Assembly: GCF_900142475.1 (NCBI RefSeq)
Contig: NZ_FRAY01000001.1
Span: 62,001 to 126,000, forward strand
Reading direction: 5' to 3'
Origin: Fibrobacter sp. UWH4
GTDB lineage: Bacteria; Fibrobacterota; Fibrobacteria; Fibrobacterales; Fibrobacteraceae
DNA length: 64,000 nt
Below are positions 56,548 to 60,862 of this stretch, piece after piece. The translations under genes were made by a program, and so were the position numbers. The first letter of the stretch is position 1, and every line of letters starts with the position of its first letter. Below the pieces are notes generated by a model, which was not told the DNA's origin, ran no database searches, and saw only the letters and a list, made by a program, of their open reading frames with translations.

Positions 56548-57372
56548 CTAAATAAACATCATCGTGTTGAGTTTGGCGCGGTATTTCCACGTGAGTTCGT
56601 GCTTCGGCCCGAGAACTCCGAACAAAGTAAGCATCGCCTTCTTTGCGGCGCCGTCGTTCCATTCCGGAGCTTCTACGTAAAGGTTCAGGAACGCCTGCAA
56701 GGCACTTTCAAAATCTTCGCTACAGGCGAGCTTGCATGCTTCGTGGTACACGATTGCTTCTTTACCTTGAACGTCCTTCTTGGCGGCTTCGGCGTGGAAG
56801 TCCAGCAGTTCCAGCAGCGATTTCGCTTCGCGGTACTGGTCGTCGGCTTCGGTAAACTTGGCAAGGACTTCCTTGGCTTTTTCAGTGTCTCCCATGCCGA
56901 GGCTTGCCTTGGCCCACAAGAGCTGCAACTTCTTGTCGTCGGGGGTCTTGGCGAGCGCTTCGTCGAGCATCGGGAGCGCCTGGTCAAAATTCTTTTGGGC
57001 AATGGCGTCTTCGAGGGCTGCTTGGAAACGTGCTTCGTCTGAAACGAAGAATTTTTCAAGACGCTTCTTGAGGTCTGCTTCGGGGAGAACGCCCTGGATG
57101 ACGTCTGCAATCTGGCCCTTGTCGACAATGTGAACTTCGGGTACCGAGCGCACGCGGAATGCCTGGATCAGCTGCATGTTTTCGCGTTCGTCGCAGCTTA
57201 CGACGCCGAGCGTAAAGTCCATGCTGGTAGAAAGCTGCCCCAGCAACTGGGAATATGGTGCGCAGTCGGGGTACTCTGCAGAAGAGAAAAGCACCGCTAC
57301 GGCGCGGTTTTCGGAGGCCTGAGCGACCTCGGTTTCAAAATTTTCAGCGGTAATTTGAACTACTTTAGCCAT
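56548..57372 (-). CDS. YbbN/CnoX-like thioredoxin-TPR protein
   Basis: 274 residues: an N-terminal thioredoxin fold (1-105) in which the CxxC site is replaced by AEYPDC, so only one Cys remains and it is unlikely to be an oxidoreductase. The rest is TPR helices (FDQALPMLDEALAKTPDDKKLQLLWAKASLGMGDTEKAKEVL). E. coli CnoX/YbbN has the same layout and acts as a co-chaperone for DnaK and GroEL under oxidative stress. No signal peptide. A TATATTTA box ends four bases before the ATG. Confidence 0.85.
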   Translation of the reverse strand: MAKVVQITAENFETEVAQASENRAVAVLFSSAEYPDCAPYSQLLGQLSTSMDFTLGVVSCDERENMQLIQAFRVRSVPEVHIVDKGQIADVIQGVLPEADLKKRLEKFFVSDEARFQAALEDAIAQKNFDQALPMLDEALAKTPDDKKLQLLWAKASLGMGDTEKAKEVLAKFTEADDQYREAKSLLELLDFHAEAAKKDVQGKEAIVYHEACKLACSEDFESALQAFLNLYVEAPEWNDGAAKKAMLTLFGVLGPKHELTWKYRAKLNTMMFI

Positions 57373-57541: not shown

Positions 57542-57549
57542 TATATTCC
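57542..57549 (+). promoter_or_regulatory. TATATTCC -7-like box
   Basis: It ends five bases before the ATG at 57555; leaderless geometry; it heads the four-gene operon to 60862. Confidence 0.45.
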
Positions 57550-57554
57550 CCAAC

Positions 57555-58076
57555 ATGAATACTTGTCCTTATTGCAAATCGGAGGTGGCGCAGATCAAGT
57601 TCCAGCATCTGGACTTGCGTATTTGCCCCAAGTGCTTTTCTACGTTTTTCCCTTGCGACCAGACCATGGCCTTCCGCAGCGATTTGACCGACAAGTCTCG
57701 CGAACTTTGGCTCAAGGCCCTGCTAGCCAAGAATGTGCAGGACCCGGTTTGCGAAGACCCTTGCTGCATTGATCACGGCGAACCTCTGGTGCAAGGAAAA
57801 CTCCCGGACTACGGTTACGACGGCAAGGTGACGAACTGCTGCAAGATGTTCCACATGCCGCCTTCCATGACGATTCAACTTTTGAAGCGTACCCTGGAAC
57901 ACCCGTTCCAGCAACCGGCGAAAGAGGGTAAGCATCATTTCTTCTTTATCCGCTTGCTCGATGCCCTGATAGACCGACTCTTTGGCGAGAAGATGCCTGA
58001 CGAAGATCCGTTGGACTTGGTGCAGTACAGTCTTCATCTCAAGCCTATTTTGGAACCCGAAACTTCAAATGACTAA
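57555..58076 (+). CDS. Zinc-ribbon protein of unknown function
   Basis: 173 residues. The N-terminus is a zinc ribbon (CPYC...CPKC, residues 4-28) like the transcription-factor zinc-finger ribbons. Further cysteines follow (VCEDPCCIDHG, NCCKMFH), so a second metal site is possible. No signal peptide. The next gene overlaps its end by 8 bases. As the first gene of an operon with two membrane sensor-like proteins it may be a cytoplasmic partner, which is inference only. Confidence 0.75.
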   Translation: MNTCPYCKSEVAQIKFQHLDLRICPKCFSTFFPCDQTMAFRSDLTDKSRELWLKALLAKNVQDPVCEDPCCIDHGEPLVQGKLPDYGYDGKVTNCCKMFHMPPSMTIQLLKRTLEHPFQQPAKEGKHHFFFIRLLDALIDRLFGEKMPDEDPLDLVQYSLHLKPILEPETSND

Positions 58077-58818
58077 AACCTATATTACAATCATCGCAAT
58101 CGCAGTCGCGGTAATTATTGGCTATTTTGCGATGCCGAGTCGTTACTTTATTGATTCGGTGTTTCCGTTGCATGGGGATGCGTCTGTCGATGCGTACGAC
58201 GACACCTACGACGGTGGTTCTTCCCAGGTGGCTTTTACGCAGGCGGATTCCTCGCTTTCGTTCAGCTGTACCCTGGGGGGCGAAGAAGGTCAGTCTGCCT
58301 GGTGTGGCTTTGTGATAGACCTGCGCGAAAATGGCGAAGAACGGTATCGCGACTGGACATTTGTCGATTCCGTCATCCTAGACCTGTACGCCGAAGGAAC
58401 CGATGAGGTCCTTATGAAAATATGGACGTATGATCCGGATGTCACGGATACCTTGAAGGCACGAACCTTCCGTCTATTGATGAAGGAAATCCCGCTTGTG
58501 GCCGGTCGCCAGAGAATCTCGATTCCGATGGAACAGTTCTACACGCCGGAATTCTGGTTCAACGACGAACATGTGGACCCCTCCTTGATCGACCGTCATC
58601 AAGAAACGGTGGCCCGCGTAGAAGTTGCTCCCGGCTGGAATCATCCTCGCGGAAAGAAATTCTCGTTGAAAGTCCATGAAATTGCAGTCAAGGGTCTCAG
58701 TAATTTTTCGTTTGGCGTCGTGATGTTCATTATGCTCGGCCTTATGATTGTGGCTATCGGTCGGACTCATTCCTACAACAAAGAAAACGAAACCCAGAAG
58801 ACGGAATCTGACGCATGA
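58069..58818 (+). CDS. Bitopic membrane protein with extracytoplasmic beta domain (sensor-like, no DNA-binding domain)
   Basis: 249 residues: membrane helix about 5-22, an extracytoplasmic domain of about 185 residues (FVDSVILDLYAEGTDEVLMKIWTYD...RISIPMEQFYTPEFWF), a second helix about 213-232, and a short cytoplasmic tail. The beta domain resembles the jelly-roll of CIA30/CBM11-like modules. It has the same topology and domain as the next gene, which adds a DNA-binding tail. Start at 58069 from the overlap with the ribbon gene. Confidence 0.78.
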   Translation: MTKTYITIIAIAVAVIIGYFAMPSRYFIDSVFPLHGDASVDAYDDTYDGGSSQVAFTQADSSLSFSCTLGGEEGQSAWCGFVIDLRENGEERYRDWTFVDSVILDLYAEGTDEVLMKIWTYDPDVTDTLKARTFRLLMKEIPLVAGRQRISIPMEQFYTPEFWFNDEHVDPSLIDRHQETVARVEVAPGWNHPRGKKFSLKVHEIAVKGLSNFSFGVVMFIMLGLMIVAIGRTHSYNKENETQKTESDA

Positions 58819-59735
58819 AAAGTATCGTCCTAGCCTCTGCGGCGCTTGTCGTTTTGATTGCGTTATGGGTAGCCTTGTTTGTTACTTTCAGGTCTACGGA
58901 ACAGGTGTTGTTCCCGGGCGGAACCTACCAGGTCTATCCGGTGACGGATTCTGCAGTCGGCGGTTTTTCGACGGTGGAACTTTCTCAGTCGGATTCTGTG
59001 ATTTCGGCCCGTGTCAATATCCGGTCCGGTATGGCGTATCCCTATGCTGGCATGGGCGTGAACCTGCTTTCGATCCACAATCGACCGGCGTCAGGATATT
59101 TTGATTTTTCGGATTATGATTCTTTGGTTATCGATGCGGAAACGGATCGCATGAGAAAAATTGGAGTCAAGATTTTAAACGACGATCCCGTCTATAGCCA
59201 GAAAAACGATTACCGGAGTTACCGACCGATGGTTTCCCAGGTGCAGGTCCGCAAGAACGGGGTTGCCGTGTCGATGCTGGACTTCAAGGTTCCCGAATGG
59301 TGGCTTGCCATGCAGGGGCTCGAAAAGGATGATGGCCTGCGTTACATGAACCGCGGAATGTTGTTTGAAATTACGAATGGCGAAGGAACGATGCTTGGCA
59401 TCCCGGACGAAATTACGGTACGCTCTATAAAGTTGTGGGGCGAAAACCGGACGTTCAAGGCGCTGATGTATGTCGCTTTGGCGGTAATTGCCGCTGTGTA
59501 TGCGGGTGTAGTCGCTCTAGCCGTTCGCGGCTCGGAACGGTCCGTGAAAAAACGGATGAAAAAAGAGGAGAACCTGAAGTCCCGTATGGCCTCGGCGGCA
59601 AAACTTTTGAGGGAGTCGGACCGCTCGGTGGCCGAAATTGCGATTGCGGTCGGGGCGGGAAGTCCGTCGTCTTTTGAAAAAGACTTTGTCCGAATCTACG
59701 GAGTAAAGCCCTTAGACTATAGGAATCAAAAATGA
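58815..59735 (+). CDS. Membrane-spanning regulator with cytoplasmic AraC half-domain
   Basis: 306 residues: membrane helix about 5-24, an extracytoplasmic jelly-roll-like domain (YDSLVIDAETDRMRKIGVKILNDD...MLDFKVPEWWL) paralogous to the preceding protein, helix about 214-237, a basic linker, and residues 256-306 that match the second helix-turn-helix of AraC proteins (MASAAKLLRESDRSVAEIAIAVGAGSPSSFEKDFVRIYGVKPLDYR). The first AraC helix-turn-helix is missing. It overlaps both neighbours by four bases (ATGA). It is likely a one-component transmembrane regulator. Confidence 0.85.
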   Translation: MKSIVLASAALVVLIALWVALFVTFRSTEQVLFPGGTYQVYPVTDSAVGGFSTVELSQSDSVISARVNIRSGMAYPYAGMGVNLLSIHNRPASGYFDFSDYDSLVIDAETDRMRKIGVKILNDDPVYSQKNDYRSYRPMVSQVQVRKNGVAVSMLDFKVPEWWLAMQGLEKDDGLRYMNRGMLFEITNGEGTMLGIPDEITVRSIKLWGENRTFKALMYVALAVIAAVYAGVVALAVRGSERSVKKRMKKEENLKSRMASAAKLLRESDRSVAEIAIAVGAGSPSSFEKDFVRIYGVKPLDYRNQK

Positions 59736-60862
59736 TTAAACGTATTTGGACGATTGACCGTGTCATGCGGCACCTTTTTATGGCGACGGGAATTGGTATC
59801 CTGCTTTGGATACTGAATTACCTGAGCGCGGTACTCGCGCCGTTTTTTGCGGCCTTTTTGGTGGCCTATATCTTTGATCCGCTTGTATGTAAAATTCAAA
59901 ATAAAGTAAAGTACCGTGTCGTCGCCGTGGCAATTGTTATTTCGATGATGGTGCTGGTAATCGGCGGGGCAATGTGGATTTTTATCCCGATGGTGGTCGG
60001 TGAAGTTCGACATTTAGGGGTGCTTATCCAGAAATTGTTCAGTGATTCGACTTGGATGGAACGTCTTTCAGCCTTTGTTCCTCAGGACTTGTGGCGGGAA
60101 TTCAAGTCCCTGATTTCTTGGGACAAGGTCGCGGTGGCGATGCAGAGCCTTGATTTCTGGAATGCGGCGCAGTCCGTGGCGGGGAAGGTCCTGCCGAGTG
60201 CCTGGGGCGTGGTGACGAAGACTTCCAGCTTGGTCATGTGGCTGTCGGGCGTGGGCCTCATCTTTATGTATCTCGTATTCATTATGCTTGATATGCCGAA
60301 ACTTCGTAAGGGGGTCAAGAATCTGTTCCCGACAAGGTATAGGCAGAGAGCTTCGGAGTTCGCGATGGAAATGGACCGTTTCATGGGCAGTTATTTCCGT
60401 GCGCAGTCGTTTGTGGCTCTTTCGGTAGGTATTTTGTATGCGATCGGCTTCGGCGTCATCGGACTGCCTATGGGGGTTGCCTTTGGCCTTTTCTCGGGCG
60501 CCCTGAATATGATCCCTTACTTGCAGCTCACGACGATTCCGTTGGCGTTGCTGTTGGCGGTGGTCTACGCTTTGGAAAAGGGAATGCCGTTTTGGGAAGT
60601 GGCCATCATTGTTCTGGTGATTTATCTGGTGGTGCAAGTGATTCAGGATATGATCCTGGTGCCCAAAATTGTGGGGTCGTCCATGAATTTGCCTCCGGTG
60701 GGCATACTCCTGTCCCTTTCTATTTGGGGCAAACTCCTCGGATTTTTGGGCCTGATTGTCGCGATTCCCTTTACTTGCCTGTGCCTCGTTTATATTGAAA
60801 AAATCCAGAAGAAAGCGGATGCTATCGTGGAGTCGGATGTCGAACCACCGCCTGAGGCCTGA
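59732..60862 (+). CDS. AI-2E (PerM) family transporter
   Basis: 376 residues, eight hydrophobic segments with the family signature in the C-half (GILYAIGFGVIGLPMGVAFGLFSGALNMIPYLQL; VIQDMILVPKIVGSSMNLPPVGILLSLSIWGKLLGFLGLIVAIPFTC). Members include TqsA, an AI-2 exporter, and Na+/H+ antiporters; the substrate here is open. Last gene of the operon with the membrane regulators, coupled by ATGA. Confidence 0.92.
   Translation: MIKRIWTIDRVMRHLFMATGIGILLWILNYLSAVLAPFFAAFLVAYIFDPLVCKIQNKVKYRVVAVAIVISMMVLVIGGAMWIFIPMVVGEVRHLGVLIQKLFSDSTWMERLSAFVPQDLWREFKSLISWDKVAVAMQSLDFWNAAQSVAGKVLPSAWGVVTKTSSLVMWLSGVGLIFMYLVFIMLDMPKLRKGVKNLFPTRYRQRASEFAMEMDRFMGSYFRAQSFVALSVGILYAIGFGVIGLPMGVAFGLFSGALNMIPYLQLTTIPLALLLAVVYALEKGMPFWEVAIIVLVIYLVVQVIQDMILVPKIVGSSMNLPPVGILLSLSIWGKLLGFLGLIVAIPFTCLCLVYIEKIQKKADAIVESDVEPPPEA

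Follow-up and report, generated by a model that had tools for sequence, protein, structure and literature searches.

A half AraC domain on a CBM11/CIA30-like membrane protein encoded with a PerM transporter in Fibrobacter

We analysed a 64,000-nucleotide stretch of the Fibrobacter sp. UWH4 genome (contig NZ_FRAY01000001.1, positions 62,001 to 126,000 of the forward strand; hereafter the window), in which four consecutive genes, Zn, S1, S2 and PerM, form a single gene unit. S1 and S2 are paralogous membrane proteins with extracytoplasmic jelly-roll domains (here the sensors), S2 alone ends in half of an AraC DNA-binding domain, and PerM is an AI-2E family transporter. We favour, at somewhat better than even chances, the reading that S1 and S2 form a glycan-type receptor pair linked to PerM and that the half-AraC tail is a remodelled accessory module rather than an autonomous transcription factor. 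This reading draws on the selection and altered residues of the tail, on its missing first helix-turn-helix and on its repeated absence from an otherwise conserved cassette.

Results

The S2 residues 256–305 match positions 31–80 of the 80 in the HTH_18 profile (PF12833) with an E value of 2.8e-10, above the cut-off, and the tail passes the PF00165 cut-off as well. Because the match is confined to these positions, the first helix-turn-helix (HTH1) is gone while the inter-HTH helix and the second one (HTH2) remain. Structurally, the tail matches Rns, CsvR and SoxS at Z 9.7–11.5, and it lies on CsvR with a root-mean-square deviation of 1.0 Å over 59 residues at 30% identity. A preliminary description made from the sequence alone had assigned this tail to the second HTH of AraC proteins, and both profile and fold uphold it.

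The AraC/XylS proteins carry a pair of HTH motifs within a domain roughly 100 residues long, and the membrane one-component regulators have a complete cytoplasmic DNA-binding domain. S2 has neither, although its sensor and transmembrane (TM) helices are present. The complete domain is found in the S2 relatives at loci L064 and L074, the two full tails tested, where the HTH_18 match spans positions 2–79 of 80. The only two other AraC-type domains in the genome of the window are complete too. The half tail is no chance match, as it is found in 38 Fibrobacter genomes, counted as matches reaching S2 residue 303–306.

The tail is conserved like the sensor. Among 18 half-tail sequences, the mean pairwise identity is 61% for the tail, 59% for the sensor and 20% for the adjoining linker, and omega is 0.075 for the tail versus 0.058 for the sensor, with synonymous sites partly saturated across all the sequences. 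In close pairs the omega of the tail is mostly 0.03–0.19, with 0.39 in one pair. On these sequence comparisons the half-AraC module is very probably functional.

Most full-domain relatives have VG[FY]...HFNR.FK in common. The 18 Fibrobacter half tails all have E, A or V in place of the F/Y that follows VG, and E in place of the N of HFNR, so the recognition-helix residues are not those of the full-length relatives and the DNA-reading surface of HTH2 is altered. In MarA and Rob, simulations and earlier structures assign specific recognition mainly to HTH1, and HTH2 contacts only the DNA backbone in the Rob crystal (PMC8279559). The distance from the sensor to HTH2 varies by up to about 10 residues among species, so a rigid coupling of the two is less likely.

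Across 61 loci of nine Fibrobacteraceae genera, the genes stand with few exceptions in the order (Zn)-S1-S2-PerM, and PerM follows S2 in almost all of them. Conservation of gene order, which had been proposed as a check, thus extends throughout the family. The Fibrobacter genome G035 (L056) has Zn, S2 and PerM with S1 missing, Zn is located elsewhere in g3 and g8, and an S1-like gene stands on its own in g2 and g4 with PerM and Zn at other sites. S2 was not found in six Fibrobacter genomes, every one of them incomplete.

The tail of S2 comes in several states within this conserved order. A full two-HTH AraC tail occurs in three genera (g5, g8 and g3), the HTH2-only tail in the 38 Fibrobacter genomes and a decayed HTH2 in the sister genus g11 (L073; HTH_18 E 0.0037). 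A tail-less S2, with the cassette kept, occurs in 36 Fibrobacter genomes and several other genera. The tail is thus conserved among many orthologues, so that the preliminary description passes the refutation test it had set itself, although about half of the Fibrobacter S2 proteins are without a tail. Since the cassette survives without the tail, its main work would be independent of DNA binding, and the half tail, selected in many species and dropped in others, is probably an accessory and not a functioning genetic switch.

Two further loci concern the S1-like gene. In the g4 genomes (L175:3892-5764 and L176:4184-5965), it lies downstream of genes for a small protein and a NifU-like protein, and S2 is absent. 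The contig of L174 (G001:C93) resembles an inverted duplication carrying the S1-like gene twice and is probably an assembly artefact.

Outside Fibrobacteraceae, the relatives of this sensor in the phylum almost all end in a complete AraC domain, in proteins of about 360–490 residues with the layout TM-sensor-TM-AraC. On the operon tree, with the tail states coded by hand, the tail-less state requires at least 7 changes on strongly supported branches, and 12 losses result when the full domain is taken as ancestral, 6 of them inside Fibrobacter. One such loss is visible at L044 and L045, where an in-frame deletion removes the HTH and the C-terminal AYRRENA of the close relatives L085 and L086 is retained. 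In the sensor-domain tree, S1 forms one clade and the full-AraC S2 of g3 and g8 branch outside the remaining S2, with weak support for the deepest branches. The half-domain is most likely a reduced AraC domain that has been lost outright several times, and the direction of change, from a full domain to a reduced or absent one, is strongly indicated.

The sensor also occurs with other outputs. At L136:1-3405, a relative of the sensor is fused with histidine kinase and receiver domains in place of AraC, and a paralogue in the genome of the window (L002:976-2346, minus strand; G000:C6) has the layout TM-sensor-TM followed by GGDEF. The loci L157-L173 hold many TM-CBM-like-TM-AraC proteins (CBM, carbohydrate-binding module), several per genome, in Fibrobacterota outside Fibrobacteraceae. 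Our literature searches turned up no description of this family as such.

S1 and S2 are paralogues with a common layout of helix, jelly roll and helix. They are homologous in sequence over the sensor (E 1.8e-6 for S2 against S1 and 4.4e-7 in reverse), and each has two hydrophobic segments with Kyte-Doolittle peaks near residues 4–6 and 212–220. The AlphaFold models built from the relatives' alignments, with mean predicted local distance difference test scores of 91 for S2 and 86 for S1, have jelly rolls in both proteins and fold the S2 tail as HTH2, so the structure prediction called for earlier does not refute the assignment. S1 and S2 have the same topology, as first described, but the term bitopic then used does not apply, since each protein is predicted to span the membrane twice and to have its N and C termini inside.

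S1 is the more conserved partner, with a mean column identity of 55% versus 43% for S2. The S2 of the window is 99% identical to that of a Fibrobacterales metagenome-assembled genome (MAG) and shares about 70–76% identity with its counterparts in Fibrobacter succinogenes and further Fibrobacter MAGs.

By VIA-align, the best structural match of both sensors is 7zkq_A (CIA30/NDUFAF1), at Z 16.1 for S2 and 16.4 for S1, closely followed by 1v0a (CBM11 of Clostridium thermocellum) at 15.3 and 15.6. Further carbohydrate-binding modules match them at Z 10–12, and the matches to viral capsid and insecticidal Cry proteins were set aside as low-scoring jelly-roll background. By their modelled fold, at Z of about 15–16, the extracytoplasmic domains of S1 and S2 are of the CBM11/CIA30 superfamily type. 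They differ from that superfamily in being anchored in the membrane at both ends and in Pfam CIA30 matches that fall below the cut-off (E 0.14 for S2 and 0.0012 for L085). The sensor profile has no match among the PDB sequences, so the CBM11/CIA30 link is structural only.

The CBM11 of C. thermocellum binds mixed-linkage beta-glucan, and CIA30/NDUFAF1 is a protein-assembly factor of complex I. The sensor is CBM-like in its modelled fold, and this fold, common to a protein-assembly factor, does not alone show sugar binding.

The genomic neighbours of the relatives also point to carbohydrates. The full-AraC relatives of other families adjoin, or lie at most two genes from, glycoside hydrolase (GH) genes of GH16 (three), GH9 (three) and GH5 (two), with GH2, GH94, PL14 or beta-N-acetylglucosaminidase genes at the same distance in others. 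A GH9, GH5 or GH16 gene lies within 3 kb at 8 of 10 loci from eight genomes, where these families total 137 genes in 37.3 Mb and an estimated 3% or so of random places would have one that near. The GGDEF paralogue adjoins a CE2-type GDSL esterase. Both the GH neighbourhoods and this esterase support carbohydrate sensing by the ancestral family, and for S1 and S2 themselves a glycan-type ligand may be proposed with moderate confidence from fold and neighbours.

Discussion

In the favoured reading, S1 and S2 would display their CBM11/CIA30-like jelly rolls outside the inner membrane and be made together with PerM. S2 would descend from a phylum-wide type of membrane-bound AraC regulator with the same sensor, whose AraC domain would have lost HTH1 before or at the origin of Fibrobacter. 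Selection may have preserved the leftover HTH2, in remodelled form, as an accessory module on the cytoplasmic side, which several Fibrobacter lineages later lost completely. The cassette would mainly serve to sense or stabilise something in the envelope, with PerM taking part, and the half-domain would be used for docking or for weak contact with nucleic acid and would not be a stand-alone transcription factor. The pairing of S1 and S2 is plausible, and their complex, their joint function with PerM and the role of the half tail are weakly suggested.

Several points weigh against this reading. The tie of S2 to PerM is one of gene order alone. The top structural match is a protein-assembly factor, CIA30, so the sugar ligand is not assured. 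The tail may, formally, have been gained independently, and by pairwise scores the half tail is not closest to the S2 full domains in every species, so descent by deletion rests mainly on distribution; the deep branches of the sensor tree are weak. Finally, DNA binding by the conserved HTH2 fold, as modelled, is still conceivable, for instance in a dimer, and the acidic residue in the recognition helix may be compatible with DNA binding.

A more specific version is that the halved AraC domain, with the altered recognition helix of its HTH2, was selected as a docking module for a partner such as RNA polymerase or another regulator, on a CBM-like and transporter-linked receptor pair. We put this forward tentatively, as an option distinctly less probable than the broader reading.

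It is rather unlikely that S2 is a working one-component regulator, binding DNA via HTH2 as a homodimer or in an S1-S2 assembly and switched by an extracytoplasmic glycan, as the preliminary description had suggested. The HTH2 fold is intact in the model, the tail is under strong purifying selection and the relatives are membrane proteins with a complete AraC domain, encoded next to glycoside hydrolases. Moreover, membrane-bound AraC-type regulators have been proposed as polysaccharide sensors in Saccharophagus degradans (PMC2386152). Like these, S2 bears an AraC-type output on a membrane protein of a lineage with polysaccharide degraders, and its phylum relatives adjoin GH genes. Unlike them, it has half a DNA-binding domain and no GH gene directly beside it in the window, and its cassette outlives the tail.

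Membrane regulators that come in pairs, with only one partner binding DNA, are called co-component systems, for example VtrA/VtrC and ToxR/ToxS (PMC9214523), and offer a precedent for a regulatory S1-S2 pair. As in these, the membrane proteins come from neighbouring or overlapping genes, one with a DNA-binding domain, here a half one, and the other without. Unlike in these, S1 and S2 are paralogues of one fold, and the HTH is C-terminal, of the AraC HTH2 type and missing in many species. Compared with the AraC/XylS domain of MarA, Rob, SoxS and Rns, the inter-HTH helix and HTH2 of S2 superpose on CsvR, Rns and SoxS at 1.0–1.7 Å, but S2 is without HTH1 and its HTH2 DNA-reading residues differ from those of the full-length relatives.

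The conserved acidic residue at the recognition positions, the absence of HTH1 and the loss of the tail from half of the genus with the cassette retained all speak against regulation through DNA. So do the linker, whose length and sequence vary too much for strict mechanical coupling, and the short upstream gap in relatives described below. What stands of the earlier proposal is therefore the half-domain itself, which is real, and the carbohydrate link, which the CBM11 fold and the GH neighbours of the relatives back; the role as a transcription regulator is weakened.

Less probable still is a CIA30-like role, in which S1 and S2 would help to assemble or stabilise PerM and would not be sugar sensors, the tail being a leftover docking surface. 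CIA30/NDUFAF1 is indeed the best structural match, and PerM follows S2 almost everywhere. However, CBM11 scores nearly equally, the relatives adjoin glycoside hydrolases and a common fold proves no function. The g4 genomes also have PerM although no S2 was found in them, which shows that PerM can do without S2. Least of all do we expect the half-domain to be a neutral remnant on its way out, despite its repeated losses, one caught as an in-frame deletion, and its decay in L073, because neutral decay is rejected on omega, low also in most close pairs, and because across species that are only about half identical the tail is as conserved as the sensor and far more than the flanking linker.

The full, half and absent AraC domains on one sensor in one conserved cassette form a natural series. 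It makes testable what the second AraC HTH does alone and how a membrane regulator can evolve to do without DNA. A second outcome is the hint of a set of membrane AraC proteins across the phylum that have CBM-like sensors and lie beside glycoside hydrolases. Fibrobacter is a rumen bacterium and the Fibrobacterota include strong cellulose degraders; to our knowledge, little is known about regulation in this phylum. In the open-licence literature searched, we found neither an AI-2E/PerM member with a CBM-like sensor pair nor any account of an AraC protein with HTH2 alone or of the present cassette.

Gene layout and flanking region

The features of the unit are listed in Table 1. All four open reading frames are confirmed on the plus strand, with the overlaps of 8, 4 and 4 bases that had been read as coupling them. 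Zn opens the unit in nearly all Fibrobacteraceae loci. It is Cys-rich, but the zinc-ribbon call first made for it is weak, with a PF13453 match (E 0.0016) under the Pfam cut-off. PerM is a clear member of the AI-2E/PerM transporters, as had been recognised, with an above-threshold PF01594 match over residues 14–357 (E 6.7e-47).

Table 1. Features of the Zn-S1-S2-PerM unit in window coordinates.
Feature	Coordinates	Strand	Basis or remark
Probable -10 element, TATATT	57542..57547	+	13 bases 5′ of the Zn start codon
Zn, Cys-rich zinc-ribbon-like protein, 173 aa	57555..58076	+	Opens the unit; PF13453 match below threshold
S1: TM, CBM11/CIA30-like jelly roll, TM; 249 aa, without output domain	58069..58818	+	Model and fold match
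S2: TM, CBM11/CIA30-like jelly roll, TM, half AraC domain; 306 aa	58815..59735	+	Profile, model and fold match
S2 extracytoplasmic jelly roll, residues 26-211	58890..59447	+	Model; VIA matches 1v0a and 7zkq_A
Second TM helix of S2, extending in the model into the AraC inter-HTH helix, residues 212-267	59448..59615	+	Model
S2 half AraC module (inter-HTH helix and HTH2), residues 255-305	59577..59729	+	PF12833 positions 31-80 of 80
HTH2 recognition-helix position, residues 284-295	59664..59699	+	Model and comparison; HFNR replaced by xFE[KR] or similar
PerM, AI-2E family transporter, 376 aa	59732..60862	+	PF01594

A TATATT box lies 12–14 bases 5′ of the start in 15 of the 16 compared loci. Lying only some 13 bases from the start, it suggests that the unit is transcribed without a leader or nearly so. 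This box alone is common to the compared loci, and no conserved operator was seen upstream of the unit in them.

A divergent gene for a thioredoxin-TPR (tetratricopeptide repeat) protein, CnoX/YbbN-like, occupies 56548-57372 on the minus strand, 182 bp from the Zn start. The gap up to the start of this gene shrinks to 30–43 bp in several half-tail genomes, which leaves little space there for an AraC-type operator. The CnoX/YbbN-like gene adjoins the Cys-rich Zn gene in many Fibrobacter species.

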